From the IMG/VR virus record IMGVR_UViG_3300047564_003388, positions 1 to 33,481 of that record: a DNA stretch of 33,481 bases. One strand, written 5' to 3'. Source of the stretch: a virus. The position numbers and the translations under genes are program-made. Below, in pieces: positions 7,181 through 31,046 of the stretch (position 1 is the first letter of the stretch; each line of letters opens with the position of its first letter). The notes below the pieces were generated by a model. That model had not been told where the DNA came from, ran no database searches, and saw nothing but the letters and a program-made list of their open reading frames with translations.

Positions 7181-7198
7181 GCACTCCTCCCCGGTATG
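7181..7198 (+). promoter_or_regulatory. start-associated element at the WhiB-like gene
   Basis: GCACTCCTCCCCGGTATG, with the ATG 15 bases after the first G. CTGACG lies exactly 14 bases upstream (7161-7166), so this copy may combine the TTGACG-type and GCAC-type arrangements. Confidence 0.5.
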
Positions 7199-7417
7199 AG
7201 TTGGAGACGCCGCGCAGCCTGCCGGAACTATGGGGTCGAGGTCTTCTTCGCGAAACGAACCAGCCCGGAAGGACGCCAAGCCGTCAATCTCTGCGCCGAT
7301 TGCCCCGTCCGTGAGGAATGCCTCGCCGACTGTCTCGCGGTGGAGAAGATCCGTCTCGGAATCCGCGGCGGTCTCGGACCCTACGAACGCGATGAACTGG
7401 CGAAAGGCGCCCGGTGA
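7196..7417 (+). CDS. whiB: WhiB-like transcription factor
   Basis: A 73-aa Wbl protein, a family restricted to actinobacteria and their phages. Cys9, Cys33, Cys36 and Cys42 give the C-x23-C-x2-C-x5-C iron-sulphur cluster pattern, within 'CADCPVREECLADC'; Cys46 is extra. The G[VI]WGG turn reads G-I-R-G-G (55-59), followed by 'LGPYERDEL', so the usual Trp that contacts sigma factor is Arg. Wbl proteins bind sigma region 4 and redirect transcription. It is first in the early block and may act with the phage sigma factor at 11309 or the host one. The start carries the GCAC...GGTATG element and no Shine-Dalgarno. Confidence 0.92.
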   Translation: MSWRRRAACRNYGVEVFFAKRTSPEGRQAVNLCADCPVREECLADCLAVEKIRLGIRGGLGPYERDELAKGAR

Positions 7418-7995
7418 ACATTGACGACCTGAAACGAAACGCCGGGGTGCTACCGATCACCGAAACCGGTCTGCGCTCTATCATCGAGGACCTCGAAGCC
7501 AACCGCGACCTCGACCCGGAAGGGTTCGTCGACGCGGTCCGTTTCTCCCTGCGAGCACTCGGCGCGCTAATGCCGCCGGAACGGTTCGACCTGCTAACAA
7601 TCGCCGAAGTCGCCGGCGTCGACCCTTCGGTCACTCTTGGCGACCTGCTCGAAGTCTTGAACGCGACCGGTGACTACATCGGCGAAACCCCGGTGAACGT
7701 CGTGCGAACCTTTATCGGTCTCGTCGACGACGCGATCCGCCCTGACATCGCGGGTCGGTATCTCGGCATCGACGAGGACGAGGCGGTCTTCTTCGAAGAG
7801 TTCCTGGATCTGCGGACCCATTGGGCGGGCCGCCTTCTCGACAAGGTCCACATCATCCTCCTTGACGGGGGAGGGACCAGGGAAGTGGCGTCGCAACTCA
7901 ACTGCACCCGGTTCATGGCCTGGCGTCTTGCCCGCTACGGACGTAGAAACCTCGCCGAAATGGGGATCTCGCTGACCCCTTCGACAGACTCTTGA
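7414..7995 (+). CDS. unknown protein with C-terminal helix-turn-helix
   Basis: I do not recognise this 193-aa protein. It starts at GTG 7414 (GTGA overlap with the WhiB-like stop), so it is co-translated with it. Residues 1-140 are acidic and helical. The C-terminus (about 148-188, 'LLDGGGTREVASQLNCTRF' then 'MAWRLARYGRRNLAEMGI') looks like a helix-turn-helix with a basic recognition helix, similar in style to sigma region 4 or small phage activators. An early regulatory role is inferred from position between WhiB-like and recombination genes. Confidence 0.65.
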   Translation: MNIDDLKRNAGVLPITETGLRSIIEDLEANRDLDPEGFVDAVRFSLRALGALMPPERFDLLTIAEVAGVDPSVTLGDLLEVLNATGDYIGETPVNVVRTFIGLVDDAIRPDIAGRYLGIDEDEAVFFEEFLDLRTHWAGRLLDKVHIILLDGGGTREVASQLNCTRFMAWRLARYGRRNLAEMGISLTPSTDS

Positions 7996-8026
7996 CGCCC
8001 TGACAAACCCCGGACGGTTCCCGGGT
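7992..8026 (+). promoter_or_regulatory. TTGACG-N14-GGAC start element of the recombination genes
   Basis: TTGACG (7992-7997), 14 bases, GGAC (8012-8015), GGTTCCCGGGT, then ATG 8027. The geometry equals that at 11275 and 17432 (minus). It lies at the end of the preceding gene and includes the short gap before 8027. No Shine-Dalgarno is present, so a leaderless transcript is suspected. Confidence 0.5.
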
Positions 8027-8683
8027 ATGAACACACAAAACAACGGGTTCGCCCGAGACTACATCGACGTCGCCACTCGCATCGCAGAGTTCCGCCGTCT
8101 CTACCCGACTGGGTCGCTGCGCCCGGTGAACCCAACCGAACCGATCAAGGTCGTCACGATCGGCGAGAAGACGTTCCTCGAATACGTCGCCGCCGCCTAT
8201 CGCACCCCCGACGATCCGTGCCCCGGAATCGGCATCTGCTGGGAACTCTTCCCGGGGAAGACACCGTTCACCCGCGACAGTGAGGCCGCGAACGCGGAGA
8301 CGTCGGCGTGGGGTCGTGCGATCGTCGCAGCACTCGCCGCTGACACCAAGCACGGCGTCGCGTCTCTCGAAGAGATCGAGAACGCGAAAGCCCGTCAGTC
8401 GGCACCGGCGCCCCGTCCGAAGTCCGCGATCCGCCGCGCCGTCGAGGAGTCTCCCGATGACGGCGAACCGGTGATCATCGCAACCGCGGACGCACCGAAG
8501 GCAACCGAAGCGCAGGTCAAAAAGATCGCGATCCTTCGCAAGGAACTCGCACTCGACGACAGCGCCTACCGCGATCGTCTCGGCCGTCTCTACGGGGTGC
8601 CGTCCGCGACGGAACTCTCGAAGACGCAGGCCGCCGACCTGATCGACAAGTTGCAGACCGCCCTCGACCGCCGCGAGTCGTGA
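8027..8683 (+). CDS. putative ssDNA-annealing recombination protein
   Basis: A 218-aa protein resembling actinophage proteins often grouped with ERF/Rad52-like single-strand annealing functions. The core (about 8-125) includes 'DYIDVATRIAEFRRLYPTG', 'EKTFLEYVAAAYRTPDD' and 'NAETSAWGRAIVAALAADT'. A disordered linker precedes a C-terminal helical module (about 165-215, 'ATEAQVKKIAILRKEL' ... 'ELSKTQAADLIDKL') seen on several phage recombination proteins. It sits upstream of RusA and a helicase, which fits recombination-dependent replication. The ATG has a TTGACG-N14-GGAC element upstream and no Shine-Dalgarno. The exact family is not proven. Confidence 0.6.
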   Translation: MNTQNNGFARDYIDVATRIAEFRRLYPTGSLRPVNPTEPIKVVTIGEKTFLEYVAAAYRTPDDPCPGIGICWELFPGKTPFTRDSEAANAETSAWGRAIVAALAADTKHGVASLEEIENAKARQSAPAPRPKSAIRRAVEESPDDGEPVIIATADAPKATEAQVKKIAILRKELALDDSAYRDRLGRLYGVPSATELSKTQAADLIDKLQTALDRRES

Positions 8684-8892
8684 TGCTTACCGCCCGCCAG
8701 ATCTTGGAGGCGTCCGGTCTGCCGTTCGCCCGTTTCCGTGAAACCGTCCGCGCTAACACCGCGACGGTGAACCGCTACCTCGACCAACCGATGCCGATCC
8801 TTCTCGCCGACGCCTGGTGCGTCCGGATCGGTCGTCACCCGGCCGAGGTATTCGGATTCGAACTCTGGTCGGAGGAGGCAAACCGTGCGTAG
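8683..8892 (+). CDS. small XRE-like helix-turn-helix protein
   Basis: A 69-aa protein; ATG 8683 shares a base with the previous TGA (TGATG), and GTG at 8680 would add one residue. 'ARQILEASGLPFARFRETV' followed by 'TVNRYLDQPMPILLADAWCV' and 'GRHPAEVFGFELW' matches compact Cro/XRE-type HTH proteins common in actinobacteria and their phages, where 'lG.hP.e.wg' ends the domain. It could be a Cro-like repressor or a recombination directionality factor. No nearby operator singles out either role. Confidence 0.65.
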   Translation: MLTARQILEASGLPFARFRETVRANTATVNRYLDQPMPILLADAWCVRIGRHPAEVFGFELWSEEANRA

Positions 8893-9268
8893 CCTCTGGG
8901 CGGTCGTTCAACTCGCCCGCCGCATCCAGGAACTGAAAAAGGCGCTCGTCTACAACAGCGACGCCCCGTTCTACGTCGAAGCGTCGTTTATCCCGTTCCT
9001 CGCTGATACTCGCAACAATGAGCCGACCGACCTGCTGCGTCGCCGTCGAATCGTCGAGGCTTACTTCGCGTGGAAGGGTCTGCACGTCATCCCGGTCTAC
9101 GGGTTCCAAACCGGCGACGAAGCGATTGCCCTGATCGGCCATGAGGGCTGCGTTTATCCGATCCGGGATGTCGGCGTTTCGTTCGAGCACTACGAGGTCG
9201 CAGTCACGTTCATCCGGGACGGGATGGCGATCCTCGACGCGTTCGAAACGGCAGCGGCGCTGACGTGA
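8885..9268 (+). CDS. hypothetical protein in recombination operon
   Basis: I do not recognise this 127-aa protein. It starts at GTG 8885, overlapping the previous gene by 8 bases. The N-terminal third is basic and helical ('VVQLARRIQELKKALVY', 'DLLRRRRIVEAYFAWKG'); the rest is hydrophobic and beta-like. No membrane helix, signal peptide or cysteine cluster is visible. Its place between a small HTH gene and RusA suggests a replication or recombination accessory role. Confidence 0.6.
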   Translation: MRSLWAVVQLARRIQELKKALVYNSDAPFYVEASFIPFLADTRNNEPTDLLRRRRIVEAYFAWKGLHVIPVYGFQTGDEAIALIGHEGCVYPIRDVGVSFEHYEVAVTFIRDGMAILDAFETAAALT

Positions 9269-9639
9269 TCAGGCTCACCTTTCCACAACCGAACCGACCC
9301 CTCTCGATCAACGAGGGGAACAAACTGCACTGGGCGGCACGTCGCCGGCGTCTCGAACCGTGGCGCGATGAGACGCTGCTCGCCCTGCGTGGCATCCAGA
9401 CCGAAGAGGGCATCGAATACCCGGCCCGGATCTCCGTCCAGGTGACGTTGACGTTCCCCCGGGCTGCTCGCCGCGACCCTCACAACTACACCGGCACCGT
9501 CGTCAAGACGATCTGCGACGCGATCGTCGCGTCCTCCCTGGTCCCTGACGACACCGCCGAATGGGTCGTCGTTCTCGACCCGATCATCCGCATCGCATCC
9601 GACGACACCTGCACCGTCACTATCGAAAGGACAAAATGA
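9265..9639 (+). CDS. rusA: RusA-like Holliday junction resolvase
   Basis: A 124-aa endonuclease of the RusA family, which cuts four-way DNA junctions made during recombination and replication. The signature is 'RRDPHNYTG' (69-77) followed by 'ICDAIVASSLVPDD' (83-96). Candidate catalytic acids are Asp71, Asp85 and Asp95/96. The second acid of the E. coli 'RDxDN' motif is His73 here, a variant that I believe is common in actinophage RusA proteins. The GTG start overlaps the previous stop as GTGA, and the end overlaps the helicase start as ATGA. Confidence 0.88.
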   Translation: MIRLTFPQPNRPLSINEGNKLHWAARRRRLEPWRDETLLALRGIQTEEGIEYPARISVQVTLTFPRAARRDPHNYTGTVVKTICDAIVASSLVPDDTAEWVVVLDPIIRIASDDTCTVTIERTK

Positions 9640-11240
9640 AACCCCTCGCGAACTCCGCAGCCGAGCAACTCGTCATCGGTTCCGTGATCTCAAACCCGGA
9701 GGCGATCGACCTGGTCGCCGAGAAACTCGGACCGGGTGACTTCTACGAGCCGCGTATCGGCACAATCTACGCCGCGGCCGCGCGTCTCGCGCTCGCCGGG
9801 AAAAGTGGCGCCCCAGCCCTCGTCGAGGAACTACGTGCTGCGGGTGAACTCCAAAGCGTTGGAGGCGACAAGGCCGTCGCGTTCCTCGCCGGGAAAGGCG
9901 TCAAGAGTCTCGACGAAGTGAAAGAGGCGATGCTGATCGTCCGCGATCTTGCGGGCAAGCGTGAGAAGGCGGCGAAAGCCTATCGGGTCGCGTCCGCACT
10001 CGCCTCCGGTGGTGAGGCCTCCGGTGAACTTGAAGAACTTCTCGCCGACACCGACACCGACGGCGAAGGCTGGACGGATCTCGGTGGGGTCGTCTCCGCG
10101 ATCGTGACCGGCACGCACCGTCGTCTCGAACCGACGCTGCTGCGACGCAAAGACGGCGCCGCGCTGCTCTACCAGAACCGGCTCAACTGGATCAGTGCCC
10201 CGCCGGAATCGATGAAGTCCTGGCTCGCGAAACTTGCGTGCGTTCAACTAATGGAGGAGGGCAATCCGGCCGTCTACGTCGACTTCGAAGAGTCCGACGG
10301 AACTTCCTGCGCCGAACGTATCGTCTCGATCGCGCTCGGTCGTGGTCACAGTATCGGAACGGTTCGCGACTGGGTCGAAGGCCCGGAGGAGAACGGTCAA
10401 CGCAACTCCGCCGGTCGTCTCTTCTACTACCGCGCAGCAACAACCGGTCTCGACACCGCCGCCCGCGCACAGATCATCCGCGTCGTCCGGTCCCGGAACG
10501 TTTCTCTCGTCGTTCTCGACGGCGTTGCCGCCGCGATGAGTTCGCACATCCCGGCCCTCGAAGAGGACAAGGCCCGCGACGTCAACCTCTGGCTCTCCGG
10601 GTTCGCGTGGCCCCTCGTCGCACTCGGCGCCGGCGTTCTCTGCGTCGACCACGTCACCAAAAACGCGCAACAGGCACCAGGGTCGTTCGCGGCCCGTTCG
10701 CCTCGTGGATCCGGTGCGAAACTCGCAGCGGTCTCTGGCACCGCGCTCACCTCACAAGTGCGAGAACCGGGCAGCGCCTGGACGATCGGCCGGGTAGACA
10801 TTGACGTCGTCAAGGACCGCCCGGGACGCGTGAAGGTGACCACCCGACAGAACCGTCGCTGCGTCGCGATGCTCGTCTCGACCCCGAAATCCGAAGGTGC
10901 GATCGAGTCGACCGCCCTCGAACTTCTCTCCCCGGAGGAAGCCGCCGAGATCCAGGCCGAGAAACGCTGGGACCTCATCTGCGCCGAACTCGCGTCGAAA
11001 CTTCTCGCCGACGCGGGCGAACCTCTCTCGAAGACCGAGATCCGCGACACCCTCAACGAACGCCGGAAGGCGAAAGGCGGGGCCGGCTGGCGGAGTCAGA
11101 CCTTGACCGATGCCATCGACTTCCTCGTCACGAAAGGCTGGGCGACCGTCGAAAAGGACGGCAAGACTCAACTACTCGGTCACGTGAAAACCTACCTCGC
11201 CGAGTATGGGGACCAGCACATCGACGACAACCCGTTCTGA
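9636..11240 (+). CDS. DnaB-N / RepA-like replicative ATPase (helicase)
   Basis: A 534-aa protein. Residues 1-100 look like a DnaB N-terminal domain ('SAAEQLVIGSVISNPEAID', 'GDFYEPRIGTIYAAA'). Residues about 165-430 are a RecA/RepA-type ATPase: a degenerate Walker A 'APPESMKSWLAK' (188-199) with Lys194, and a Walker B strand ending at Asp295 in 'VSLVVLDGV'. The last 90 residues look like a winged helix ('LSKTEIRDTLNERRKAKG' ... 'FLVTKGWATVEKDGK'). It is probably the phage replication initiator or helicase; no polymerase or primase gene is present, so host enzymes would be used. ATG 9636 follows GAAAGGA. Confidence 0.8.
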   Translation: MKPLANSAAEQLVIGSVISNPEAIDLVAEKLGPGDFYEPRIGTIYAAAARLALAGKSGAPALVEELRAAGELQSVGGDKAVAFLAGKGVKSLDEVKEAMLIVRDLAGKREKAAKAYRVASALASGGEASGELEELLADTDTDGEGWTDLGGVVSAIVTGTHRRLEPTLLRRKDGAALLYQNRLNWISAPPESMKSWLAKLACVQLMEEGNPAVYVDFEESDGTSCAERIVSIALGRGHSIGTVRDWVEGPEENGQRNSAGRLFYYRAATTGLDTAARAQIIRVVRSRNVSLVVLDGVAAAMSSHIPALEEDKARDVNLWLSGFAWPLVALGAGVLCVDHVTKNAQQAPGSFAARSPRGSGAKLAAVSGTALTSQVREPGSAWTIGRVDIDVVKDRPGRVKVTTRQNRRCVAMLVSTPKSEGAIESTALELLSPEEAAEIQAEKRWDLICAELASKLLADAGEPLSKTEIRDTLNERRKAKGGAGWRSQTLTDAIDFLVTKGWATVEKDGKTQLLGHVKTYLAEYGDQHIDDNPF

Positions 11241-11250
11241 CCTCGGGAAG

Positions 11251-11269
11251 TGCGTGCCCCCAGCGCGCG
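11251..11269. promoter_or_regulatory. TGCG dyad before the sigma gene promoter
   Basis: TGCGTGCC-CCC-AGCGCGCG, one of six intergenic copies of a 19-bp dyad. It lies directly upstream of the TTGACG element, a typical activator or repressor position. Confidence 0.55.
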
Positions 11270-11274
11270 AACAC

Positions 11275-11308
11275 TTGACGGTTCCACGGTTCGCGGACCA
11301 TCTTCGGT
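11275..11308 (+). promoter_or_regulatory. TTGACG-N14-GGAC promoter of the sigma gene
   Basis: TTGACG (11275-11280), 14 bases, GGAC (11295-11298), CATCTTCGGT, ATG 11309. TTGACGGTTCC is shared with the leftward promoter at 17432. CATCTT at 18 bp from TTGACG is an acceptable -10. Transcription would then start at or next to the ATG. A TGCG dyad (11251-11269) ends six bases upstream of TTGACG. Confidence 0.55.
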
Positions 11309-12157
11309 ATGGCACACACAGGGGAGAACCCCCTCTCTCGACAACTATCCGAAGACCGGTTCGCACCGTTGACAAGTGACGACCAGACGCGAATCATCCG
11401 TGACCTCGCACAGGCAATCGCCGATTGTGACAACAAGGCCGAACAACGCATACGGCACGAACTCATCGAACGACATCTTCGTCTCGTCCTCTCCCTGACG
11501 AAAGGCTACGAGAAACGTCTCGACCAGGAGGAAGCGTTCGCCGTCGGCGTGCTCGCCCTCTCGGAAGCGATGCAGCGTTGGAACCCTGCCCCGGGCGGGA
11601 TGAGTCCGTATCAGTGGGCGAAGCGCTGGATCACGACGGCGCTGAACAAGGCGGTCGACGCGGCCCGCACGATCCGGATCCCGTCGCAGGTCGCCTACTC
11701 CGCGGCGCTGAACACCCGGACCGTGAAAGAGACCGAGGCCCGGCTGGGGCGTCGTCTCTCCGCCGAGGAGATCGAGACCCTCACCAATGGCGAACGCCGG
11801 CTGGAAGACCTCCCGCTCGCTGACGTTTCCCTGGACGCCCCGCCGCCCGGGTATGCCAAAGAGGACGACGCCGCAACTCTCGCCGAGGTGACCGCGTCAA
11901 CCGACCGCCCGATCGAGGATGAGATAACTCGCGACGACCTGCACGCCCGGGTTCGCCGGTCGCTGCGGGCGCTGACCGATCAGGAACGTCTCGTGATCGA
12001 GCACCGGTTCGGTCTCAATGGCGCCGAAGGCCGCACCCTCGCCGAACTCGGAAAGATGCTCGGCACCTCCGGCGAAGCGATCCGACGTCTCGAAGCGTCC
12101 GCCCTCGCCAAACTCACACACCCAGCAAACCCCGACGACCTCGGCGGGATGCTCTAA
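11309..12157 (+). CDS. sigma-70 family RNA polymerase sigma factor
   Basis: A 282-aa protein with recognisable sigma regions: region 2 about 45-110 ('RHLRLVLSLTKGYEKRLDQE', 'SPYQWAKRWITTALNKAVDA'), region 3 about 120-155 ('RIPSQVAYSAALNTRTVKET'), a poorly conserved acidic linker, and region 4 about 208-272 ('LTDQERLVIEHRFGLNG', 'RTLAELGKMLGTSGEAIRRL'). It lacks region 1.1 and resembles group 2 factors. It should direct RNA polymerase to phage promoters. Its own start has TTGACG, N14, GGAC, N10, ATG and no Shine-Dalgarno, with a TGCG dyad just upstream, so it may be regulated by phage factors. Confidence 0.92.
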   Translation: MAHTGENPLSRQLSEDRFAPLTSDDQTRIIRDLAQAIADCDNKAEQRIRHELIERHLRLVLSLTKGYEKRLDQEEAFAVGVLALSEAMQRWNPAPGGMSPYQWAKRWITTALNKAVDAARTIRIPSQVAYSAALNTRTVKETEARLGRRLSAEEIETLTNGERRLEDLPLADVSLDAPPPGYAKEDDAATLAEVTASTDRPIEDEITRDDLHARVRRSLRALTDQERLVIEHRFGLNGAEGRTLAELGKMLGTSGEAIRRLEASALAKLTHPANPDDLGGML

Positions 12158-12174
12158 CCCGAAAGGACCCGACC

Positions 12175-12837
12175 GTGACCGACCCTCACGTGATCACCAT
12201 CAACCCCGACCTCGCCGAGGTCACCTTCGACGTCGAACGGATGAAAGCGTTCTACGCAAACTGGGGGATCGACCTGCGGACCACCGACGCGGTGAAGTTT
12301 CGAGAGGTCCGAGAAGGCGGCCGCAAACTCGTCGAGAAGGCCTGCGTCCGTTGCGAGGAGTTGCGACCCGGCGACCAGTTCCGGCAGGTCATCCAACGCA
12401 TGCCCGACGGGACGGTTCGTTCCGGGCAACGCGTCCGGGTCTGTATGGACTGCGAAGCGGTCAACGAGTCAAAAAAGAACCAGGCCAAAACGAAACGCGC
12501 CTACACCCGCCGCCAACCGAAGGCGCAAGTCTGCAAGACCTGCGGCGTCAAAAAGGACCCGGAGAACTTCGTCCCGGCCGACCCAGCGCATCCCGCCTAC
12601 GGGTTCACCGAGCACTGCCTCGACTGCCGGCGTGACCTCCGCAAACCGCCCTACGGGGTGAAGACCTGCCCGGGCTGCGATCAGGAAAAGCACCAGCAGG
12701 AGTTCCGGACGAAGGCCGATGGCACCCGGTCAGTCGGACGACCATTCGTGGACTGCCTTGACTGCCGGGCCGAGGCCGAGACGGTGAAGGATGCCCGCTG
12801 CACCGTCTGCGCCGGGACGGGCCGCCGGAAACGCTGA
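12175..12837 (+). CDS. tandem zinc-ribbon protein
   Basis: A 220-aa basic protein with seven CxxC pairs: Cys57/60, 90/93, 120/123, 148/151, 165/168, 194/197 and 209/212. The first six make three ribbons of the type 'CxxCG..K....F' ... 'CxDCR', each about 30-40 residues, plus a terminal half-ribbon. Such modules occur in phage proteins related to recombination endonuclease VII and in nucleic-acid-binding regulators; no nuclease motif is obvious here. It starts at GTG 12175 with GAAAGGA upstream. It follows the sigma gene by 17 bases and is probably co-transcribed, but its role is unknown. Confidence 0.7.
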   Translation: MTDPHVITINPDLAEVTFDVERMKAFYANWGIDLRTTDAVKFREVREGGRKLVEKACVRCEELRPGDQFRQVIQRMPDGTVRSGQRVRVCMDCEAVNESKKNQAKTKRAYTRRQPKAQVCKTCGVKKDPENFVPADPAHPAYGFTEHCLDCRRDLRKPPYGVKTCPGCDQEKHQQEFRTKADGTRSVGRPFVDCLDCRAEAETVKDARCTVCAGTGRRKR

Positions 12838-12989
12838 CCCGGCAAGGGTTCCAGGAACCCGCACGGTTCGCGAAAATAGCGGGAACTCGCGACGGGAGCA
12901 CCCGGTCCGTGACTTACCTACTTGCCGATTTCTCCGCTGCGCGCACGGTTCCCCTTGCCGGATAACGACCCCCGGCGAGGAGAACAACA
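12838..12989 (+). promoter_or_regulatory. recombinase leader region
   Basis: This 152-base gap holds the GGTTCC palindrome (12846-12860), two copies of GCACGGTT (12861 and 12943), a GCACCCGGTCC-GTG start-like element (12898-12911) opening an 18-codon frame to TAA 12963-12965, and the strong Shine-Dalgarno GAGGAG (12977-12982) of the recombinase. I see no clear -35/-10 pair. An attP site could lie here or in 15828-16057, but none can be identified without the host sequence. Confidence 0.45.
12846..12860. promoter_or_regulatory. perfect palindrome GGGTTCC-A-GGAACCC, candidate operator
   Basis: A 15-bp perfect dyad lies 130 bases upstream of the recombinase start. A matching dyad (GGTTCC-n-GGAACC) overlaps the promoter region at 17415-17427, and GGTTCC half-sites occur near the starts at 8027 and 11309. 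It is absent from the coding regions I compared. A shared repressor or activator is the natural inference. Confidence 0.5.
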
Positions 12990-15827: not shown

Positions 15828-15855
15828 ACAGACCGACAGAACGGAAAACGGACCG

Positions 15856-15904
15856 AAAGAGAGCGGAAAACGGGCACCAGCGGCCCAGAAACCGCTCTCT
15901 TTTT
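15856..15904 (+). terminator. Rho-independent terminator after the recombinase
   Basis: AAAGAGAGCGG (15856-15866) pairs with CCGCTCTCTTT (15892-15902), eleven base pairs around a 25-base loop, and the stem runs into TTTTT (15900-15904). It is 29 bases past the recombinase stop. It is the only hairpin in the window with a proper T-run. Confidence 0.7.
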
Positions 15905-16027
15905 GCGTCTGCTGCGCGACGAGGGCGTTTATGGGGTCCAGGTCACAAAACGGTCCTGCGGCCAGCACAGGCGTTCCTGGCGCGTCTGGTGAGGAGTTGA
16001 GAAAAACCCCGGGCGACAACCTTGCGC

Positions 16028-16216: not shown

Positions 16217-16219
16217 ACC

Positions 16220-16435: not shown

Positions 16436-16474
16436 CTCTCGGCGGAACTATCAGTCCGAGCACCCGTCCCCGGC

Positions 16475-16528
16475 GTGATCCACGACCCTGGCACGCTGGG
16501 TCGAGCGTGCCGGCGTGTTCGCTGCTGA
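16475..16528 (+). CDS. possible 17-codon micro-ORF with start-associated element
   Basis: GCACCCGTCCCCGGC precedes a GTG at the same 15-base distance seen at proven gene starts. The frame runs 17 codons to TGA 16526-16528, eight bases before the terminator hairpin. The peptide is short and Arg/Cys-rich at its end. It could equally be a non-coding transcript start. Support comes only from the motif and layout. Confidence 0.25.
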   Translation: MIHDPGTLGRACRRVRC

Positions 16529-16799: not shown

Positions 16800-17135
16800 C
16801 TTCACCTCCTCCCGTTCCGTCTCGTGAGGACAACGACCGTCGCGAGAAACGCGACGACCGTGATTACAAGTCGCGCAGAGGATCTGAAAGAGGTCCGTCG
16901 GCCAGACGCCGTTCGTCTTGTGAAGTGAGCGGACGATCCGAACCGTTGGAGATCCACCGTTCTCGGCCCGGTGCTGCGTCCCGCCGCCGTGACGGTGGTC
17001 GAAGGTGAGGGACCACACACGTTCTTCGCCGCAGCAAACACAGATCGGAAGGTCGCTACCGGCGATCCCGCAGAGGGCCTCGAATCGTTGACGTTCACGC
17101 TGGATACGTCGAAGTTCCGGGTCCCTGCTCGCCAT
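16587..17135 (-). CDS. HNH-type nuclease domain, in frame with the membrane protein
   Basis: Read leftward from ATG 17135. Residues about 1-112 contain an HNH-like zinc fold: 'CVCCGEE' then 'LTFDHRHGGG' and 'ILCATCNHGRR', the usual CxxC...DH...CxxCN order. The start has GCACTCCTCCCAACG immediately before ATG, the start-associated element, and no Shine-Dalgarno. No stop codon separates it from the membrane protein at 16799, so the complete frame encodes 182 aa. Either a true fusion or loss of the HNH stop explains this. It overlaps the upstream HTH gene by 41 bases. Confidence 0.65.
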   Translation of the reverse strand: MASRDPELRRIQRERQRFEALCGIAGSDLPICVCCGEERVWSLTFDHRHGGGTQHRAENGGSPTVRIVRSLHKTNGVWPTDLFQILCATCNHGRRVSRDGRCPHETEREEVKMEPTETKAVLGTVVRVFLAAVLAQFIAGGADVFAVDGDGLRTIVSAGVAAVALAAANWLNPSDHRYGVKH

Positions 17136-17397
17136 CGTTGGGAGGAGTGCCAGCACCCGGGGACGCGGATCGGCGAGCTCGACGCCGCGTCGCACCCTCC
17201 GGGCGGAGAAGGTCCCGGAGGGCGCCTTCGGTGATTCCGAGTTTCTCGGCACACCGGCGCAGCGAATGCCCGGACGCCTTCCATTCGGCGACTGCCTCCG
17301 CGACTTCGCGGCGATAGTCGGCGGATGCAGCGTCGGCGAGGCGTCGCGCCTCGATCTCGCGCTGCTTGGCTGCGGCGACACGGGTAGATGGGTTCAT
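17095..17397 (-). CDS. helix-turn-helix protein, candidate phage regulator
   Basis: A 100-aa leftward protein. Residues about 30-75 hold a clear HTH, 'EWKASGHSLRRCAEKLGIT' followed by 'EGALRDLLRPEGATRRRARR', with a basic tail that could contact DNA. The last 25 residues look disordered. It is first in the only leftward block and its start region has TTGACG, N14, GGAC, N11, ATG overlapping the perfect palindrome GGTTCC-n-GGAACC. A self-regulating immunity or lysogeny regulator is a reasonable inference; a role tied to the neighbouring HNH gene is the alternative. Confidence 0.7.
   Translation of the reverse strand: MNPSTRVAAAKQREIEARRLADAASADYRREVAEAVAEWKASGHSLRRCAEKLGITEGALRDLLRPEGATRRRARRSASPGAGTPPNDGEQGPGTSTYPA
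17133..17150 (-). promoter_or_regulatory. start-associated element at the leftward HNH gene
   Basis: On the minus strand GCACTCCTCCCAACGATG ends with the start codon. It lies inside the upstream HTH gene. Its presence on the opposite strand shows that the element follows gene orientation. Confidence 0.45.
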
Positions 17398-17432
17398 GCC
17401 TTCCGATCGTCCTGGGTTCCGGGAACCGTCAA
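17398..17432 (-). promoter_or_regulatory. leftward promoter with GGTTCC-n-GGAACC palindrome
   Basis: On the minus strand TTGACG (17432-17427) is followed by 14 bases, GGAC (17412-17409), 11 bases and the ATG at 17397. The 13-bp palindrome GGTTCC-C-GGAACC (17427-17415) begins inside the TTGACG element. Identical geometry occurs at 7992-8026 and 11275-11308. The -10 region is weak by host consensus. Confidence 0.55.
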
Positions 17433-17462
17433 GGGTCCCCGGTCACGGTCACTCTTTACGCA

Positions 17463-18644
17463 ATGGCGAAAGGCGCAAAAACCAGGAAATACGCGACCGG
17501 GAAGATCCTCGTCGGGTCGTGTCTTGACCGGCTGAAAGAACTCGGCGACGGGACGGTCGACTCGATCGTGACCGACCCGCCCTACGAACTCGGGTTTATG
17601 GGGAAGGCCTGGGACGCGTCCGGGATCGCCTACAACGTCGATCTCTGGCGCGAGTGCCTGCGAGTCTTGAAACCGGGTGGGCATCTTCTCGCGTTCGGTG
17701 GAACACGAACGTATCACCGGATGGCGGTCGCGATCGAGGATGCCGGGTTCGAGATCCGTGACAGCGTCCACTGGATCTACGGTTCGGGGTTCCCGAAGTC
17801 CCTCGATGTCAGCAAAGCGATCGACAAGGCGGCCGGAGCCGAGCGTGAAGTTATCGGAACTAAGCGAGGAACTACAGCTGACCCTTCTACTGGTCGGACC
17901 GACATGCCCGGCAAAGCAACTGGGGTGAAACAGGTAGGCATTGACCTCGACATCACCGCCCCTGCCACCGACGCCGTGAAGCGCTGGCAAGGCTGGGGAA
18001 CCGCGCTCAAACCGGCGCACGAGCCGATCGTCGTCGCCCGCAAACCTCTCGACGGGACAGTAGCCTCGAACGTCCTCGCGCACGGCACCGGCGCGATCAA
18101 CGTCGACGCGTGTCGCGTTGGTGAAGAGGTTATGCCAGTCACAAAGTCCACAGGCGAAATCATAGGAAGAAGCAATAGTCTCATGGCTCCATTGACAAAA
18201 ACTGAGGTCATTGGAAGCGCGGTCGGTCGCTGGCCTGCGAACGTGATCTTCGACGAAACCGCCGGAACGGAACTCGGAGAGACCGCCAGGTTCTTCTACT
18301 GCCCCAAGCCGTCACGCAGCGAACGCAACGCGGGAACCGAGCACCTGCCCGCAAAATCCTGGAAAGCCAACAAGCCGACACCAGACAGCGCAAAACACGG
18401 CGACAGTGACGGACGGCCGAACGGCAACAACCACCCGACCGTCAAGCCGGTCGCGCTGATCCGCTACCTCGTCCGTCTCGTCACCCCGCCGGGCGGCGTC
18501 GTCCTTGACCCGTTCCTCGGTTCCGGCACGACCGCCGTCGCCGCGATCGAGGAAGGGTTCACCTGGGTCGGCTGCGAACTCACTGCCGACTACCTGCCGA
18601 TCATCTCCGGCCGGGTTCGCAACGCACAGAGAAAGCACTCGTGA
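17463..18644 (+). CDS. DNA adenine-N6 methyltransferase (beta-type)
   Basis: A 393-aa methyltransferase. The catalytic 'DPPY' (38-41) comes first and the SAM-binding 'DPFLGSGTT' (349-357) last, the order of beta-class amino-methyltransferases; DPPY favours adenine N6. The middle (about 130-300) should be the target recognition domain. Two stretches there (about 17850-17910 and 18118-18222) are clearly richer in A/T than the surroundings and use codons rare elsewhere, suggesting domain exchange. No restriction enzyme is adjacent, so it is probably an orphan protecting phage DNA. ATG 17463 is the first start that fits the family. Confidence 0.88.
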   Translation: MAKGAKTRKYATGKILVGSCLDRLKELGDGTVDSIVTDPPYELGFMGKAWDASGIAYNVDLWRECLRVLKPGGHLLAFGGTRTYHRMAVAIEDAGFEIRDSVHWIYGSGFPKSLDVSKAIDKAAGAEREVIGTKRGTTADPSTGRTDMPGKATGVKQVGIDLDITAPATDAVKRWQGWGTALKPAHEPIVVARKPLDGTVASNVLAHGTGAINVDACRVGEEVMPVTKSTGEIIGRSNSLMAPLTKTEVIGSAVGRWPANVIFDETAGTELGETARFFYCPKPSRSERNAGTEHLPAKSWKANKPTPDSAKHGDSDGRPNGNNHPTVKPVALIRYLVRLVTPPGGVVLDPFLGSGTTAVAAIEEGFTWVGCELTADYLPIISGRVRNAQRKHS

Positions 18645-18651
18645 CGGTATG
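18635..18651 (+). promoter_or_regulatory. start-associated element at the SAM methyltransferase
   Basis: GCACTCGTGACGGTATG, one base shorter than the copy at 31029. It overlaps the last codons and stop of the DNA methyltransferase gene. Confidence 0.5.
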
Positions 18652-21997: not shown

Positions 21998-22014
21998 GCA
22001 CCCGTCCACGTATG
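21998..22014 (+). promoter_or_regulatory. start-associated element at the HNH gene
   Basis: GCACCCGTCCACGTATG; the ATG is 14 bases after the first G. It follows the structured intergenic region. Confidence 0.5.
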
Positions 22015-22407: not shown

Positions 22408-22500
22408 GGGCGTCGCGAAAACGCGGAGATCGAGCCGGAACACCGCGCCCGGAACTCCGCATGCATGCCGACAGGTTCGGCGGAAAATGTCACCCCCCGG

Positions 22501-22518
22501 GCACTCGTCGAGGGTATG
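22501..22518 (+). promoter_or_regulatory. start-associated element at terS
   Basis: GCACTCGTCGAGGGTATG. The P27 family N-terminus fixes the start codon, so the 15-base distance is firm here. It opens the head operon. Confidence 0.55.
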
Positions 22519-24553: not shown

Positions 24554-24840
24554 GCGTCAACCCGAGCACCAGCGCCGTTTCCGTGGGGAGCACCGCGACC
24601 GCCGTCATCAATGACGCGACGACCGCCGTCGGCGCTCACGAGGACGGTCGGATCACCTACGAACTCTTCAACACCGGACCGAACACCTGCTACCTGGGCG
24701 CGTCCGGCGTGACAACCTCGACCGGGATCCCTCTCCCGTTGAACTCGTCACGTTCGATCTCGGTTCGTCACGGGGCGGAACTTTACGCGATCTGCGCGTC
24801 AGCGGAGTCCGCATCGGTTCGGGTCCTGGTGGTGCCGTGA
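24550..24840 (+). CDS. small virion-associated protein (hypothetical)
   Basis: A 96-aa protein overlapping TerL by four bases. It is a compact beta-rich chain, 'YELFNTGPNTCYLGASGVTT' followed by 'ISVRHGAELYAICAS', of a kind that recurs in phage structural operons next to head or fibre genes. It may be a small decoration or fibre-accessory protein. No nuclease, membrane or DNA-binding motif is present. Confidence 0.65.
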   Translation: MSVNPSTSAVSVGSTATAVINDATTAVGAHEDGRITYELFNTGPNTCYLGASGVTTSTGIPLPLNSSRSISVRHGAELYAICASAESASVRVLVVP

Positions 24841-26012: not shown

Positions 26013-26031
26013 TGAAGAGGAAGGGAACCGC

Positions 26032-26241
26032 ATGCGCGCATACAGAAACGTCGCCCTGCATCGGAGGGTAATCGTCGCCCTTTCTACCGGCAGGTCGTTC
26101 CGTGGCATCCTCTTCGAGGTTCGCGGTCCACTGCTCGTCCTCAAAGACGCCGAGTTGATCGACGGCCGTGACGTGATCCCGGTCGACGGTTCTGTCGTCA
26201 TCGAACGCGAACGCGTCGAGTTCGTCCAGGTGGTCGCGTAG
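26032..26241 (+). CDS. small LSm/SH3-like protein
   Basis: A 69-aa protein. ATG 26032 has AGGAAGG upstream. The pattern 'RRVIVALSTGRSFRGILFEV' then 'GPLLVLKDAELI' and 'VPVDGS'-like 'IPVDGSVVIERERVEFVQVV' suggests five short strands, as in an Sm or SH3 barrel. Proteins of this size and motif are found between terL and portal in other actinophages as far as I recall, with unknown function. RNA or DNA binding is possible but unproven. Confidence 0.65.
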   Translation: MRAYRNVALHRRVIVALSTGRSFRGILFEVRGPLLVLKDAELIDGRDVIPVDGSVVIERERVEFVQVVA

Positions 26242-28199
26242 TGAGCGTCGTCCAATCTTCGAACGGTCTCGTCTCCGTCTCCCGTTCGCCCCTCGGTCTT
26301 GTAGAAGCGTCGATCGCGTTCTATGAGAACACCCGGCAGGACTACGAGGACATCTACCGCACGCAACCGGAACTCCGATCCGCGGTCGACTTCCTCGCCC
26401 GCAACGTGAGCCAACTGCCCCTGCACGCCTTCGTCCGGATCTCCGATCTGGAACGTCAGCGTGTCACCGGCGTCCCGCTCACCGACACCCTCGAACGTCC
26501 CGACAAGACCGTCACCCGGTCCCGCTGGCTCGACGCCCTGGTCAAGGACCTCGCGATCTTCGACTCCGCCTACTTCGTCAAGGTTCGCGGCGAGGACGGA
26601 CGTCTCGCCCTGGTGCGCATCCCGCCCGGGTCGATCGAACTGCTCGGCGAGAACTGGCTCATCCCGGATGGCTACCGCGTCCGCGGCACGCACGGGACCG
26701 TGGACTTCACCCGTGACCAGGTTATCGACATTCACGGCTACAACCCATCGGATCCTCGTCGCGGTCTCTCACCGATCGAGACGCTGCGTCGTCTTCTCGC
26801 CGAGCAGGACGCCGCCGGCCGCTATCGCGAAAAGTTCTGGGAGAACTCCGCCCGAATGGGTGGCGTGATCGAACGTCCGGCCGCCGCGCCGAACTGGTCA
26901 CCGGAGGCCCGGTCACGTTTCCGTGCTGACTTCGAAGCGTCCTACACCGGCGCCGCCGCGTCCGGTCGCACGCTCGTTCTCGAAGAGGGTATGACCTACC
27001 GTCCGGTCTCCTACTCGGCTCGCGACTCGCAATACCTCGAAGCGTTCCAACTTTCCCGGGAGGTCGTCGCGACCGCTTACGGGATCCCGGTCGGACTGCT
27101 CGGTCTCGGCGCGACCAACTACGCGTCGCTCACCGAACAGCACCGGCAACTCTACGCCGACTGCCTCGCGCCCTGGCTGACCCGCATCCAGGAGGAACTC
27201 GAAGCGCAACTCCTGCCAGAGTTCGCCGACCTTCCTGACGGCGTCTACTTGGAGTTCAACCTCGCCGCGAAACTCGCCGGGTCGTTCACCGAGCAGGCCG
27301 CCGTCCTGCAAGCGTCGGTCGGCGCGCCGTATCTGACCCGGAACGAAGCGCGTGCCCGTCTCAACCTTTCACCGATCGAAGGTGGCGACGAACTCGTCAC
27401 ACCGCTCAACGTTCTCATCGGCGGTCAAGCATCCCCGCAGGACTCCGTCTCTGACGATCGCGTCGTCGGCGGTGCCCTCTCCGAAGAACCGCAGGCGAAA
27501 AGCATCGAGGCCGCAGCAGCGGTCCCTGACCAGGCGAAGGCCCTACGCCGTCAGCGCATCCTCCGGGAACGTCGCGCTGCTGCTGACGAGTTCGCCGCGT
27601 CTCTGGTCGACGCCCTGGAACGTCAGCGCCGATCCGTGATCGCGAAACTCGGCGCGAAGTCGAAGACCGGCGTCAAGGCTACCGTCGAAGAGGTCTACAA
27701 CGTGGAACGATTCACGACTGAACTCGCCCGCGATCTGCGCCCGCCGGTCCGCAAACTTGCCCGCCGGATGGCGAACACCGTCGGCGAGTGGGATCCCGAC
27801 AACGCCGCCGACTACCTGGACGCGTTCGCTGACGGGACCGCCGAAGCGTTCAACGCGTCGACCGCGGAGCGTCTCGCCCGCGCCCTCGAAGAGGGTGACA
27901 TCGAGGACATCGACGGTCTCTTCGACGAGATCTCGGCCGGGACTGCGTTGACGATGGCGGCGTCGGTCGCTACTGCGATCGGTGAGTTCGCCCGGTCAGA
28001 GGCCGCCGCCGCTGCTGACATCGCCGAGAAGACCTGGGTCGTGACGTCCGGGAACCCGCGCAGCGCACACGCAACGCTCGACGGCGAAACCGTCCCTCGC
28101 AGCGAAACTTTCTCGAACGGTGCAGCCTTCCCCGGTGATCCAGTCCTCGACGCATCCGAGAAGGCGAACTGCCAATGCCTCGTCGACTGGGGCGTCTGA
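26241..28199 (+). CDS. portal protein fused to MuF-like minor head protein
   Basis: A 652-aa protein starting at GTG 26241 on the previous TAG. Residues about 1-400 are an HK97-type portal ('YRTQPELRSAVDFLARNVSQ', 'PSDPRRGLSPIETLRRLL', 'TAYGIPVGLLGLG', 'SLTEQHRQLY'). After a linker (about 400-440) the C-terminal part is helical and ends with the MuF signature 'SGNPRSAHATLDGE' (about 602-615), 'FSNGAAFPGDP' and 'NCQCLVDW'. The portal forms the dodecameric DNA entry ring; MuF proteins sit inside the head and may be ejected. The fusion replaces two usual genes. Confidence 0.92.
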   Translation: MSVVQSSNGLVSVSRSPLGLVEASIAFYENTRQDYEDIYRTQPELRSAVDFLARNVSQLPLHAFVRISDLERQRVTGVPLTDTLERPDKTVTRSRWLDALVKDLAIFDSAYFVKVRGEDGRLALVRIPPGSIELLGENWLIPDGYRVRGTHGTVDFTRDQVIDIHGYNPSDPRRGLSPIETLRRLLAEQDAAGRYREKFWENSARMGGVIERPAAAPNWSPEARSRFRADFEASYTGAAASGRTLVLEEGMTYRPVSYSARDSQYLEAFQLSREVVATAYGIPVGLLGLGATNYASLTEQHRQLYADCLAPWLTRIQEELEAQLLPEFADLPDGVYLEFNLAAKLAGSFTEQAAVLQASVGAPYLTRNEARARLNLSPIEGGDELVTPLNVLIGGQASPQDSVSDDRVVGGALSEEPQAKSIEAAAAVPDQAKALRRQRILRERRAAADEFAASLVDALERQRRSVIAKLGAKSKTGVKATVEEVYNVERFTTELARDLRPPVRKLARRMANTVGEWDPDNAADYLDAFADGTAEAFNASTAERLARALEEGDIEDIDGLFDEISAGTALTMAASVATAIGEFARSEAAAAADIAEKTWVVTSGNPRSAHATLDGETVPRSETFSNGAAFPGDPVLDASEKANCQCLVDWGV

Positions 28200-28200
28200 C

Positions 28201-29724
28201 GTGCCTTACTTCATCTCGAACGAGAACCCTGACTGCGACGGATGGGCGGTAGAGAAAGACGACGGCGAGGTCATCGGCTGCCACAGAACACGCCGCGAAG
28301 CGATCGATCAGATGGTCGCGGTCAGTCTCGCCGAGGAGATTGAACCCGGCGGCGAGCGAAACGCGAAGGCGATCCCGGAAGACCGAGTCGCGCCGGAAGC
28401 CGCCCGGGAAGAGGCGCAACGTGGTCTCGACTGGCGTCGCGAATACAACCGCGGAGGAACCGAGGTCGGCGTCGCGCGTGCCCGGGACATCGTGAACGGT
28501 CGCAACCTCTCGATCGACACGATCCAGCGGATGGCGTCCTACTTCGCCCGGCACGAGGTCGACAAGCAAGGCCAGGGATGGAATCGCGACGAGGAAGGGT
28601 ATCCGTCCGCCGGTCGGATTGCCTGGGCACTCTGGGGCGGCGATCCGGCGCGCACGTGGGCAGAGAACATCCTCGAAGCCGTCGAAGCGTCCGAAGGTGA
28701 GAAGGCCGAGAGGTCGGGCACTCGTCCACGGGTGAGTATGCAGCAGAAGTCCGCCGCGGCAACCTTCCAGGTCAAGGCCGCCAGCAAGAACGCCCCGAAC
28801 GGCGAAGTCGAGGCCCTCGTTTCCGTCTTCGGCAACGTCGACCTCGTCGGCGACCGGGTAATGCCAGGTGCGTTCGAGAAGTCCCTCGCCGCGATCAAGA
28901 ACGCCGGGCGTTCGATCCCGTTCGTCTGGTCGCACCAGTGGTCGGACCCGAACGCCTACATCGGCGTCGTGCGTGACGCGAAGGAAACGCCGGAAGGTCT
29001 TCTCGTCCGGGCGGAACTCTTCGACACTCCGACCGCGCAGCACATCCGGACCCTTCTCGCGTCCGGCGTCGTCTCGGAGTTCTCGTTCGCCTACGATGTG
29101 ATCAACTCCGCCGAAGGAAAAGACGGCGTGACCGAGTTGACCGAACTGCACGTTCTCGAAGTCGGACCGACGCTCAAAGGCGCGAACCCAGCGACACAAC
29201 TCGTTGGGGTCCGTTCTCTCGACGCCGCTCGTGCGAAGGCCGAGGCCGGTGAACTCGCCGAAGGTGACTTCGTCACGTGGGGCGAGGAAGGCTACGGCCG
29301 GGTCGAATACGTAATGACCGAAGGAACATTCGGCGTCGAAGGGGATCCTCTCTCGCTCGAAGCGTCACCGGAGGACCCGCTGGCGATGGTCCGGGTCTAC
29401 GAGGACGAAACCGGCGAATACCTCCCGACCGAAGACTTCCAGGGTTTCCGGTTCTCTGAACTGACCGTCAGCGAAGAGAAGGCCGTGACCGTTGTGAAGT
29501 CCCAACCCGGGCGCACTCTTCACAAGGTCGGACGAGCACTTTCGACAAAGAACGAAGAGAAACTCCGCACCGCGAAGGATCTCCTCGGCGAGGTGCTCGC
29601 AACGATAGACACCGTAGGCGAACCAGCCAAGTCCGAGGAACCCGCAGAGGTCAAGGATGAGGAGCGGGGGCTGCCGGGCGAGGTCGCCGCGCTACTGATC
29701 GAACTCGAAGAGATCGACGAGTAG
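28201..29724 (+). CDS. capsid maturation protease with N-terminal extension
   Basis: A 507-aa frame starting at GTG 28201, one base after the portal stop. Residues 1-50 ('CDGWAVEKDDGEVIGCHRTR') and 75-165 ('YNRGGTEVGVARARDIVNGR', 'ARHEVDKQGQGW', 'SAGRIAWALWGGDP') are two modules found ahead of or beside phage prohead proteases. The HK97-type U35 protease spans about 190-340, with candidate catalytic His245 ('VWSHQW') and Ser292/Ser295 ('VVSEFSFAYD'). The rest is acidic, with a small barrel-like domain (about 360-420), and may act as internal scaffold. Confidence 0.85.
   Translation: MPYFISNENPDCDGWAVEKDDGEVIGCHRTRREAIDQMVAVSLAEEIEPGGERNAKAIPEDRVAPEAAREEAQRGLDWRREYNRGGTEVGVARARDIVNGRNLSIDTIQRMASYFARHEVDKQGQGWNRDEEGYPSAGRIAWALWGGDPARTWAENILEAVEASEGEKAERSGTRPRVSMQQKSAAATFQVKAASKNAPNGEVEALVSVFGNVDLVGDRVMPGAFEKSLAAIKNAGRSIPFVWSHQWSDPNAYIGVVRDAKETPEGLLVRAELFDTPTAQHIRTLLASGVVSEFSFAYDVINSAEGKDGVTELTELHVLEVGPTLKGANPATQLVGVRSLDAARAKAEAGELAEGDFVTWGEEGYGRVEYVMTEGTFGVEGDPLSLEASPEDPLAMVRVYEDETGEYLPTEDFQGFRFSELTVSEEKAVTVVKSQPGRTLHKVGRALSTKNEEKLRTAKDLLGEVLATIDTVGEPAKSEEPAEVKDEERGLPGEVAALLIELEEIDE
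28732..29724 (+). CDS. internal-start form of the capsid protease
   Basis: GCACTCGTCCACGG (28718-28731) precedes GTG 28732, and ATG 28738 follows in the same frame. This is the element found at other gene starts, with the same 14-base distance, and it lies exactly at the junction between the N-terminal modules and the protease domain. A 330-aa product containing only protease and scaffold-like parts is predicted in addition to the full-length form. The alternative is that the element marks a former separate gene. Confidence 0.5.
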   Translation: MSMQQKSAAATFQVKAASKNAPNGEVEALVSVFGNVDLVGDRVMPGAFEKSLAAIKNAGRSIPFVWSHQWSDPNAYIGVVRDAKETPEGLLVRAELFDTPTAQHIRTLLASGVVSEFSFAYDVINSAEGKDGVTELTELHVLEVGPTLKGANPATQLVGVRSLDAARAKAEAGELAEGDFVTWGEEGYGRVEYVMTEGTFGVEGDPLSLEASPEDPLAMVRVYEDETGEYLPTEDFQGFRFSELTVSEEKAVTVVKSQPGRTLHKVGRALSTKNEEKLRTAKDLLGEVLATIDTVGEPAKSEEPAEVKDEERGLPGEVAALLIELEEIDE

Positions 29725-29769
29725 CAAACCAACCAACCCGAAATCCCAAACCCCCGAAAGGAAAACCCC

Positions 29770-30969
29770 ATGAAGAACCTGATCGAAGAGGCGAAGAACA
29801 TCGCCGCAACCGCAGCAAGCGAAGGCCGCGCATTGACCTCCGAAGAGCGTGAGACCGTCGAGTCCGCGATCGCCGGTGCGAAGGCAGTGAAGGCCGACCG
29901 CGAACTCGCGTCCGCAGTGGAGGCGCTCGGCGCCGAACTCGGCAACGTCAAGCCGGAGACCTCGGCACCTGCGAAGGGCCGCACCGCTGGCGAGCGTTTC
30001 GTCCAGGACGGCGCATTCAAGTCCTGGCTCGACGCCGCAACCGTGAACGGCACCGCTGACGTGAAGTCAATGCCGAACTCGCCTTCCGTCCTCGTTGGCG
30101 GTATGAAGGCCACGATCACCGGCGCGTCTGACGACTACGCCGGCGCCCTGGTGGTCAACGACCGCTACGCACCGGTCGAGGCTGCTTACGCTCGCGAGTT
30201 GAACGTCCTCAACTTGATCACGATGGCCCGCACCGGGTCCGACCTGGTCGAGTTCGCTCGGGTGCTCAACTACGCCGCAGGCCAGTCGGTGAACTCCGCT
30301 GCGCCGAAAGCCGAAGGCATCGCGTCCGACGAGTCGACAATGAAGTTCGCGAAACTTACCGCCGCCGTGCGTGACGTTCGCACCTTCATCCCGGCATCGG
30401 TTCGCGCCCTCAACGACGTCCAGCAGTTGCAGAGTCTCGTCGACGCCTTCATCCGTTCGAGCATCCTCGACGAAGTCGCCGATCAGATCATCAACGGTGA
30501 CGGCACCGGGGAGAACATGGAAGGCATCTTGAACGTCAGCGGCACGCAGTCGCAGGCGTTCGACACCGACGCGGTGACCACCATCCGCAAGGCGATCCGC
30601 AAGGTTCGCCACACCGGAAACGGTCGCGCGAACGCGGTCTTGCTCAACCCAGAGGACGACGAAATGATCGACCTCCTCATCAACACCGGCGGGGATTACA
30701 TCTTCGGCGGTCCGGTGAGCGCAGCGACTCCTACCCTCTGGGGTCTCCCTCGCGTGGTCGACGCAGCCGTGCCGCAAGGTCAGGCAATCGTCGGTGACTT
30801 CCGCAAGGCAGTCCTCTGGGAGCGCAGCCCGGTCAGCGTTGCGGTCTACCCGCAGCATAGCGACTACGCCGTCAAGGGTCTCGTCGCCGTCGCCGGAACC
30901 GCTCGCGCCGCGTTCGGCGTGGTGAACCCATCGCAGTTCGTGATCTGCGACATCGAGTCCGGTTCCTAA
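29770..30969 (+). CDS. major capsid protein (HK97 fold)
   Basis: A 399-aa protein. Residues 1-100 are a helical, charged delta-domain-like scaffold ('SEERETVESAIAGAKAVKAD'), probably removed by the protease. The mature part has HK97 landmarks: 'FIPASVRALNDVQQLQSLVD', 'ILDEVADQIINGDGTGENMEGIL', 'AVLLNPEDDEMIDLL', 'TLWGLPRVV' and the terminal 'NPSQFVICDI'. ATG 29770 has GAAAGGA upstream. A strong terminator follows 22 bases after the stop, so the most abundant protein has its own transcript end. Confidence 0.95.
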   Translation: MKNLIEEAKNIAATAASEGRALTSEERETVESAIAGAKAVKADRELASAVEALGAELGNVKPETSAPAKGRTAGERFVQDGAFKSWLDAATVNGTADVKSMPNSPSVLVGGMKATITGASDDYAGALVVNDRYAPVEAAYARELNVLNLITMARTGSDLVEFARVLNYAAGQSVNSAAPKAEGIASDESTMKFAKLTAAVRDVRTFIPASVRALNDVQQLQSLVDAFIRSSILDEVADQIINGDGTGENMEGILNVSGTQSQAFDTDAVTTIRKAIRKVRHTGNGRANAVLLNPEDDEMIDLLINTGGDYIFGGPVSAATPTLWGLPRVVDAAVPQGQAIVGDFRKAVLWERSPVSVAVYPQHSDYAVKGLVAVAGTARAAFGVVNPSQFVICDIESGS

Positions 30970-30990
30970 CCTTTACAGGTTCCGCAGAGA

Positions 30991-31015
30991 GACCCCCGGG
31001 CATTGCCCGGGGGTC
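30991..31015 (+). terminator. terminator after the capsid gene
   Basis: GACCCCCGGGCA and TGCCCGGGGGTC form a 12-bp perfect stem around a single T, followed by TTCTCGTTT. It differs from the hairpin at 16537-16561 only at the central base. It separates the capsid gene from the connector genes, whose first start (31044) is only 28 bases further on. Confidence 0.85.
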
Positions 31016-31028
31016 TTCTCGTTTCCGG

Positions 31029-31046
31029 GCACTCGTCGACGGTATG
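31029..31046 (+). promoter_or_regulatory. start-associated element GCACTCGTCGACGGTATG
   Basis: This copy lies 13 bases after a strong terminator and ends with the start codon of the next gene. Because only 28 bases separate the terminator from the ATG, any new transcript must begin at or very close to this element. It is the clearest case for a promoter or leaderless start function. Confidence 0.6.

Follow-up and report, generated by a model that had tools for sequence, protein, structure and literature searches.

A start-codon-spaced GCAC element as the probable core of phage-specific leaderless promoters in phages encoding a sigma factor and a WhiB-like protein

The window described here is a whole virus contig of 33,481 bases (IMG/VR record IMGVR_UViG_3300047564_003388). 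It carries genes for terminase, portal, prohead protease, capsid, tail, endolysin, DnaB, a WhiB-like protein, a sigma factor, HNH nucleases, and methylases. Several of its genes are preceded by a short element, G(C/G)AC, located 14 or 15 nucleotides (nt) before the start codon. This element, referred to below as the core, is the subject of this report. A preliminary description of the window had listed eleven starts with the core and had suggested a phage-specific promoter or a signal for leaderless initiation, with the sigma factor or the WhiB-like protein of the phage as its possible reader.

The core in the window and in related phages

The core was read directly at all eleven of the listed starts (Table 1). 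Among 43 curated starts of the window, 11 have G[CG]AC at -14 or -15, compared with 0.92 expected, and every other offset gives two or fewer. One of these 11, the start at 1181, has the Shine-Dalgarno (SD)-like word AAAGGA, and its match is probably due to chance. The sequence GCACTCGTCNACGGTATG, with three or fewer mismatches allowed, has three matches in the window against 0.14 expected; none of 100 shuffles reached this number. The objection that the motif might be equally frequent at random positions, raised in the preliminary description itself, was put to the count and did not refute the claim. When the null was widened to any degenerate 4-mer and any pair of offsets, 3 of 200 random ATG/GTG sets reached 11, which means that the p value for the window alone is about 0.015. 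A scan of the window for host SigA promoters gave the background level only. The motif counts of the window by themselves are suggestive, not conclusive, and the question of the motif is decided by comparative data from relatives.

A search with the portal protein led to the close relatives G005, G001, G006, G008, and G004, plus fragments. Most genes of these five have counterparts in the window (roughly 30-80% identity), and each of the five encodes the sigma factor (42-65% identity to that of the window) and WhiB (44-76%). The family consists of phages of about 30-33 kb with a GC content of 34-67%, and the contigs that cover the region of the sigma and whiB genes have both. The sigma factor as a single query gave one relative, and the family was obtained with the portal, a sigma alignment, and a DnaB alignment. 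The terminase large subunit (TerL) as a query gave mainly distant phages, which were used as controls.

In 14 non-redundant family contigs, no other 4-mer is as offset-specific as GCAC, which is found at -14 before 35 of 570 starts, compared with 2.6 per other offset. The independent contigs found through DnaB, which had not been used previously (L134, L135, L138, L142, and L143; 35-67% GC), have GCAC 10 times at -14 and 7 times at -15 versus 0.92 per other offset, in a count where the L143 phage partly enters three times through its fragments L145 and L146. No peak was observed in 20 TerL-related control contigs without the sigma gene (3 at -14; mean, 3.3), and the controls including Arthrobacter phage Leona (n = 21) have 5 at -14 in 944 starts. 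Neither a sigma nor a WhiB match was found in any of the 20 TerL contigs or in Leona. The motif is therefore present only alongside the sigma gene, as judged from the family contigs and the 21 controls without it, and the suggested link to the sigma factor and WhiB gains in weight, as both genes accompany the motif.

Counting of 8-mers, which is independent of the motif as first described, places GCACTCGT among the most frequent words of the window, as it does GCACTGGT for G001 and GGGCACTC for G005; SD words rank there as well. In G001, seven of the eight genome-wide copies of GCACTG[GC]T sit 6 nt before an ATG. An exact DNA scan of viral contigs with the motif gave four single matches and missed the family, whose lineages differ in the motif letters other than GCAC and the T at -7.

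Boxes, proposed promoter classes, and individual sites

The extended motif reads GTCCCC(-28) N8 GCAC(-14) N3 T(-7) N6 ATG. At 59 motif sites of the family, T is at -7 in 40, compared with 20% at other GCACs, and the GTCCCC box is present at 21, where 0.5 would be expected. With one mismatch or none, the box lies exactly 14 nt before GCAC at 20 sites, and any other spacing occurs at most once. The combination GTCCCC-N8-GCAC-N3-T is found 33 times in 376 kb of family sequence, 25 of them with a correctly positioned start codon, whereas 343 kb of controls have a single copy. The start codons at these sites are 55 ATG and 4 GTG, TTG starts having been excluded from the motif set, so that their number is zero by construction; at other starts, ATG accounts for 299 of 426. 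The remark that the listed starts lack a good SD sequence extends to the family, since none of the 59 motif starts has an SD-like word versus 235 of 393 (60%) other starts.

The preliminary description had treated the element as a single start-associated sequence. The eleven sites have one core in common but represent two or three promoter classes. Class A has GTCCCC at -28 to -23 and is located, according to the orthologue footprints, before whiB, both HNH genes, and others; in these footprints, where a few orthologues had several possible in-frame starts, the motif-bearing one was chosen. Class B has TTGACG (window and G005) or GTGTGC (relatives) near -35 and is located before the GemA-like/DnaB operon and the helix-turn-helix (HTH) gene, plus the sigma gene in two phages. 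A sequence resembling the TTGAC(A) of SigA promoters is present near -35 at 8027, 11309, and 17397 of the window and at one site of G005; class A is without it, and relatives have GTGTGC in its place.

Table 1. Predicted promoter sites with the core, and the two candidate reader genes, in the window
Feature	Coordinates (strand)	Upstream box	Core and its offset	Start codon	Remarks
whiB, class A promoter	7167..7198 (+)	GTCCCC 7167-7172, N8	GCACTCCT; GCAC, -15	ATG 7196	
WhiB-like protein	7196..7417 (+)				73 aa; PF02467; candidate co-activator
Class B promoter	7992..8029 (+)	TTGACG 7992-7997	GGAC 8012, -15	ATG 8027	GemA-like gene
Sigma gene, class B promoter	11275..11311 (+)	TTGACG 11275-11280	GGAC 11295, -14	ATG 11309	
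Phage sigma-70 family factor	11309..12157 (+)				282 aa; domains Sigma70_r2 and Sigma70_r4; suggested to read the core
Weak site	16460..16477 (+)		GCACCCGTCCCCGGC; GCAC, -15	GTG 16475	17-aa open reading frame only
HNH nuclease, class A promoter	17133..17164 (-)	GTCCCC 17164-17159, N8	GCACTCCT; GCAC, -15	ATG 17135	
HTH protein, class B promoter	17395..17432 (-)	TTGACG 17432-17427	GGAC 17412-17409, -15	ATG 17397	
DNA methylase (N6_N4_Mtase), class A-like promoter	17435..17465 (+)	GTCCCC	TCACTCTT	ATG 17463	Found by position weight matrix scan
Methyltransferase-like gene	18635..18651 (+)	none clear	GCACTCGTGACGGT; GCAC, -14	ATG 18649	
HNH endonuclease	21998..22014 (+)		GCACCCGTCCACGT; GCAC, -14	ATG 22012	
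Terminase small subunit	22501..22518 (+)	TGTCACC upstream	GCACTCGTCGAGGGT; GCAC, -15	ATG 22516	
Prohead protease, internal start	28718..28734 (+)		GCACTCGTCCACGG; GCAC, -14	GTG 28732	Inside frame 28201-29724
Small gene after major capsid gene	31029..31046 (+)		GCACTCGTCGACGGT; GCAC, -15	ATG 31044	Best core

The box and the core before the whiB orthologues are conserved in nearly all lineages, and whiB is the most consistently marked gene. The gene opened by ATG 8027 is at the head of the DnaB operon, and several of its orthologues have GTGTGC near -35 and G/A-CAC near -14. The promoter of the sigma gene is conserved in G005 only. At 18649, the orthologue in G005 has GGCACTCGTTACCGT-ATG, and the start corresponding to 22012 has GCAC at -14 in nine relatives. 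The site at 17463 was not in the preliminary list. The promoters of the HTH gene and the DNA methylase gene are divergent and overlapping (17397-17463), and a similar pair is present in G005 (4874 and 4943). The start at 16475 had been regarded as a weaker case. GCAC is indeed there, and the start opens a frame of just 17 codons. The site may drive transcription of a short or antisense RNA, or it may be a chance match.

At three of the marked genes, the core and the SD sequence are exchanged between orthologous starts. For the terminase small subunit, the core is present in the window, L098, and G001, and an SD-type start in L094 and L080. For the gene at 31044, the GCAC core is present in the window, G005, and G001/L079, and an SD in G006/G008 (L098 and L079 are fragments of G005 or G001). 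The third case is the internal protease start: the window, G005, and G001/L079 have the core, and G008, L094, and L080 have a GGAGG-type SD at the identical start. The site at 28732 was correctly recognized, but the start is within a longer open frame. The use of this start, with the core here and an SD in sister phages, suggests two protein products. The frame includes an N-terminal extension of 177 residues (phrog_2859-like), which was not seen in Arthrobacter phage Leona.

Two copies of GCACTCGT, at 1106 and 32887, are inside genes, at positions common to G005, and no start codon follows them. The list of pattern copies in G001 contains no equivalent. Protein conservation is probably their cause; alternatively, the tape measure and major tail genes might be transcribed from them. 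The copy of GTGCCC...GCACTACT common to G006, G008, and L143 was rejected as a promoter, as it has no start codon and looks protein-coding.

A repeat of 356 bases is common to both ends of the contig (1-356 and 33126-33481; 349 of 356 identical), so the contig seems to be a near-complete circular map, of about 33.1 kb, of a siphophage. The repeat might reflect a circular assembly or a genuine terminal redundancy with variants. Among phage records, the portal protein is best matched by those of Arthrobacter phages (about 42% identity). WhiB proteins are not known outside actinobacteria and their phages, and an actinobacterial host is therefore inferred. A search of bacterial genomes with the DnaB alignment gave no match and thus pointed to no host or prophage. 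In the tape measure gene (2564-2881), a stretch of about 78 bases occurs three times with a period of 120 bases, corresponding to 40-residue repeats.

Candidate readers and alternative explanations

The presence of rigidly spaced boxes up to 36 nt upstream, together with T(-7), points to a promoter from which transcription would begin at the start codon. A ribosome signal is not expected so far upstream, and the promoter reading is therefore preferred. Judged from the sequences, the element is probably the central part of a promoter specific to these phages, with a leaderless transcript; the phage sigma factor would read it, and WhiB is a likely co-activator. The suggestion of a phage-specific promoter or leaderless signal is thus supported by the restriction to the family, the rigid spacing to the start codon, the box at -28 or -35, and the lack of an SD. 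In numbering from the start codon (+1), the positions of a sigma-70 -10 hexamer would be filled by T(-7) and by the bases at -12 and -11, which are A-C instead of T-A. This core would be recognized by the RNA polymerase of the host in combination with the sigma factor of the phage. Class B would work through a -35 contact. Class A is without a -35 and would therefore depend on a partner, for which the phage WhiB, bound to region 4 of the sigma factor, is the most likely candidate.

The phage sigma factor resembles primary sigma factors (SigA proteins) in regions 2 and 4. In region 2.4, W-I-R-Q-A-I-T-R of the SigA chain aligns with W-I-T-T-A-L-N-K of the window; that is, R-Q-A-I-T is changed to T-T-A-L-N, and all seven family sigmas in the alignment have the T-T pair. 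In sigma 70, base -12 is read by the Q and T positions of this region, and their alteration fits the change of T(-12)A(-11) to A(-12)C(-11), and recognition of the core by the phage sigma factor is considered probable. WhiB proteins contact region 4 of the sigma factor by means of an FF pair, a tryptophan, and H516 of the sigma factor, and the contact between WhiB3 and SigA needs H516, F31, and F32 (PMC10245118). H271-P272 of the phage sigma is invariant in the aligned family sigmas, and H271 is likely the equivalent of SigA H516. The FF pair of WhiB is kept in every lineage but G014, which has WF. A role of WhiB as the class A partner is plausible on these residues.

Several observations weigh against this model. 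The box at -28 to -23 is off the normal place of sigma region 4, so class A would need a further reader. TTGACG in class B of the window could also be read by host sigma A. Neither upstream box is present at 22 of the 59 sites, and 18649, 22012, 28732, and 31044 of the window have the core without a clear box. In addition, the tryptophan of GIWGG, corresponding to the essential W76 of WhiB3, has been replaced by arginine in four of the WhiB sequences (window, G005, G001, and L004).

The turn of WhiB in these four is thus GIRGG, and the window, G005, and G001 make up the lineage where the core would have spread to late genes. In the lineage of the window, the core may have spread to packaging and head genes, including the internal protease start, where sister phages use SD sequences. 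A more specific form of the sigma-WhiB model can be offered tentatively: a two-protein switch, in which the sigma factor would read A(-12)C(-11)nnnT(-7), WhiB would permit GTCCCC at -28 to serve for a -35, transcripts would be leaderless, and the core would have spread and replaced the SD even in-frame.

TTGACG at -35 in class B of the window and G005 is sigma A-like, and this raises the alternative that the reader of the leaderless promoters is sigma A of the host, which an activator of the phage (WhiB or the HTH protein) would direct to them, with the phage sigma acting at other promoters. The consistent marking of whiB would agree with such an activator, and WhiB7 is known to bind region 4 of sigma A (PMC3905903). 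However, the core does not contain TAnnnT. It is kept over 34-67% GC, and therefore probably over different hosts, beside a phage sigma with altered -10-reading residues, and the controls without the sigma factor are also without the core. This alternative is considered rather unlikely.

The rigid spacing of the two boxes, and the site carried by the HTH gene itself, would also be explained if GTCCCC-N8-GCAC were an operator bound by a protein of the phage, such as the HTH protein, and overlapping otherwise weak promoters. The boxes form neither an inverted nor a direct repeat, however, and more than half of the sites have the core without GTCCCC and with its distance to the start codon unchanged, which an operator would not require; we regard an operator as improbable. 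Still less credence is given to a translational start signal in the mRNA that replaces the SD, as presumed for cluster K mycobacteriophages. The fixed distance to the start codon, the absence of the SD, and the exchange of SD and motif at orthologous starts speak for it, but the conserved boxes at -28 and -35 exceed the usual range of ribosome contact, T(-7) and the rigid 14-nt box spacing match promoter geometry, and the sites often head gene clusters and include one divergent gene pair. A promoter for an extracytoplasmic function sigma factor (GGAAC at -35, CGTC at -10) was rejected because CGTC occurs mainly in the window and its closest lineage and GGAAC at the weak site 16475 only, and because the phage sigma matches primary SigA proteins; likewise rejected was a WhiA/WhiB promoter with a GACAC (GTGTC) site because the box is GTCCCC-like and GTGTC is just occasional.

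Comparison with known systems and implications

Leaderless SigA promoters of actinobacteria have the -10 about 7 nt before the start codon and no SD. The present element has a -10-like part at the same fixed distance (GCAC at -14, T at -7, and a sharp single-offset peak); unlike these promoters, which have TANNNT, it has A(-12)C(-11)nnnT(-7), with T(-7) alone kept from the hexamer. In the late promoters of T4 gp55 and in SPO1 gp28, as proposed here, a phage sigma factor redirects host RNA polymerase to phage-only promoters. T4 gp55 reads a -10-only TATAAATA; a leaderless geometry or a WhiB partner is not known for that system. The middle and late promoters of Thermus phage P23-45 are leaderless. 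They depend on an extended -10 and only slightly on a -35 (reviewed in PMC7403470), but use host sigma A under the phage protein gp39, with no phage sigma or WhiB.

WhiB7 binds region 4 of the sigma factor and activates its own gene, with an AT-rich motif upstream of the -35 (PMC3905903), and WhiA uses GACAC (PMC3781837). Binding of WhiB to sigma region 4 is alike in the WhiB7 and WhiA/WhiB systems and in the model for the present phages, whereas the motifs differ from GTCCCC-N8-GCAC. The start-associated sequence (SAS) and extended SAS (ESAS) of cluster K mycobacteriophages were rightly set apart in the preliminary description: GGGATAGGAGCCC, typically 3-7 bp from the start, contains an SD-like GGAG and is presumed to be translational (PMC3203893; PMC11373665). 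Both systems have a short asymmetric motif near many starts of one phage group, a strong preference for ATG, and a subset with an extended upstream element, and at least one cluster K phage (Adephagia) encodes WhiB. Unlike the SAS in both sequence and distance, the present motif has GCAC at -14, no SD, and boxes at -28 or -35. No description of this motif or phage family was found in the literature searched, which lay mostly outside subscription journals.

WhiB proteins are common in actinophages, and their mode of action on phage genes is largely obscure. In the present family, a conserved promoter set occurs together with a phage sigma factor and a phage WhiB, which makes the sigma/WhiB pairing directly testable. 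The family also records starts that differ between SD-based and promoter-linked leaderless initiation, and would be useful for studying the evolution of leaderless starts and for start calling in actinophages.

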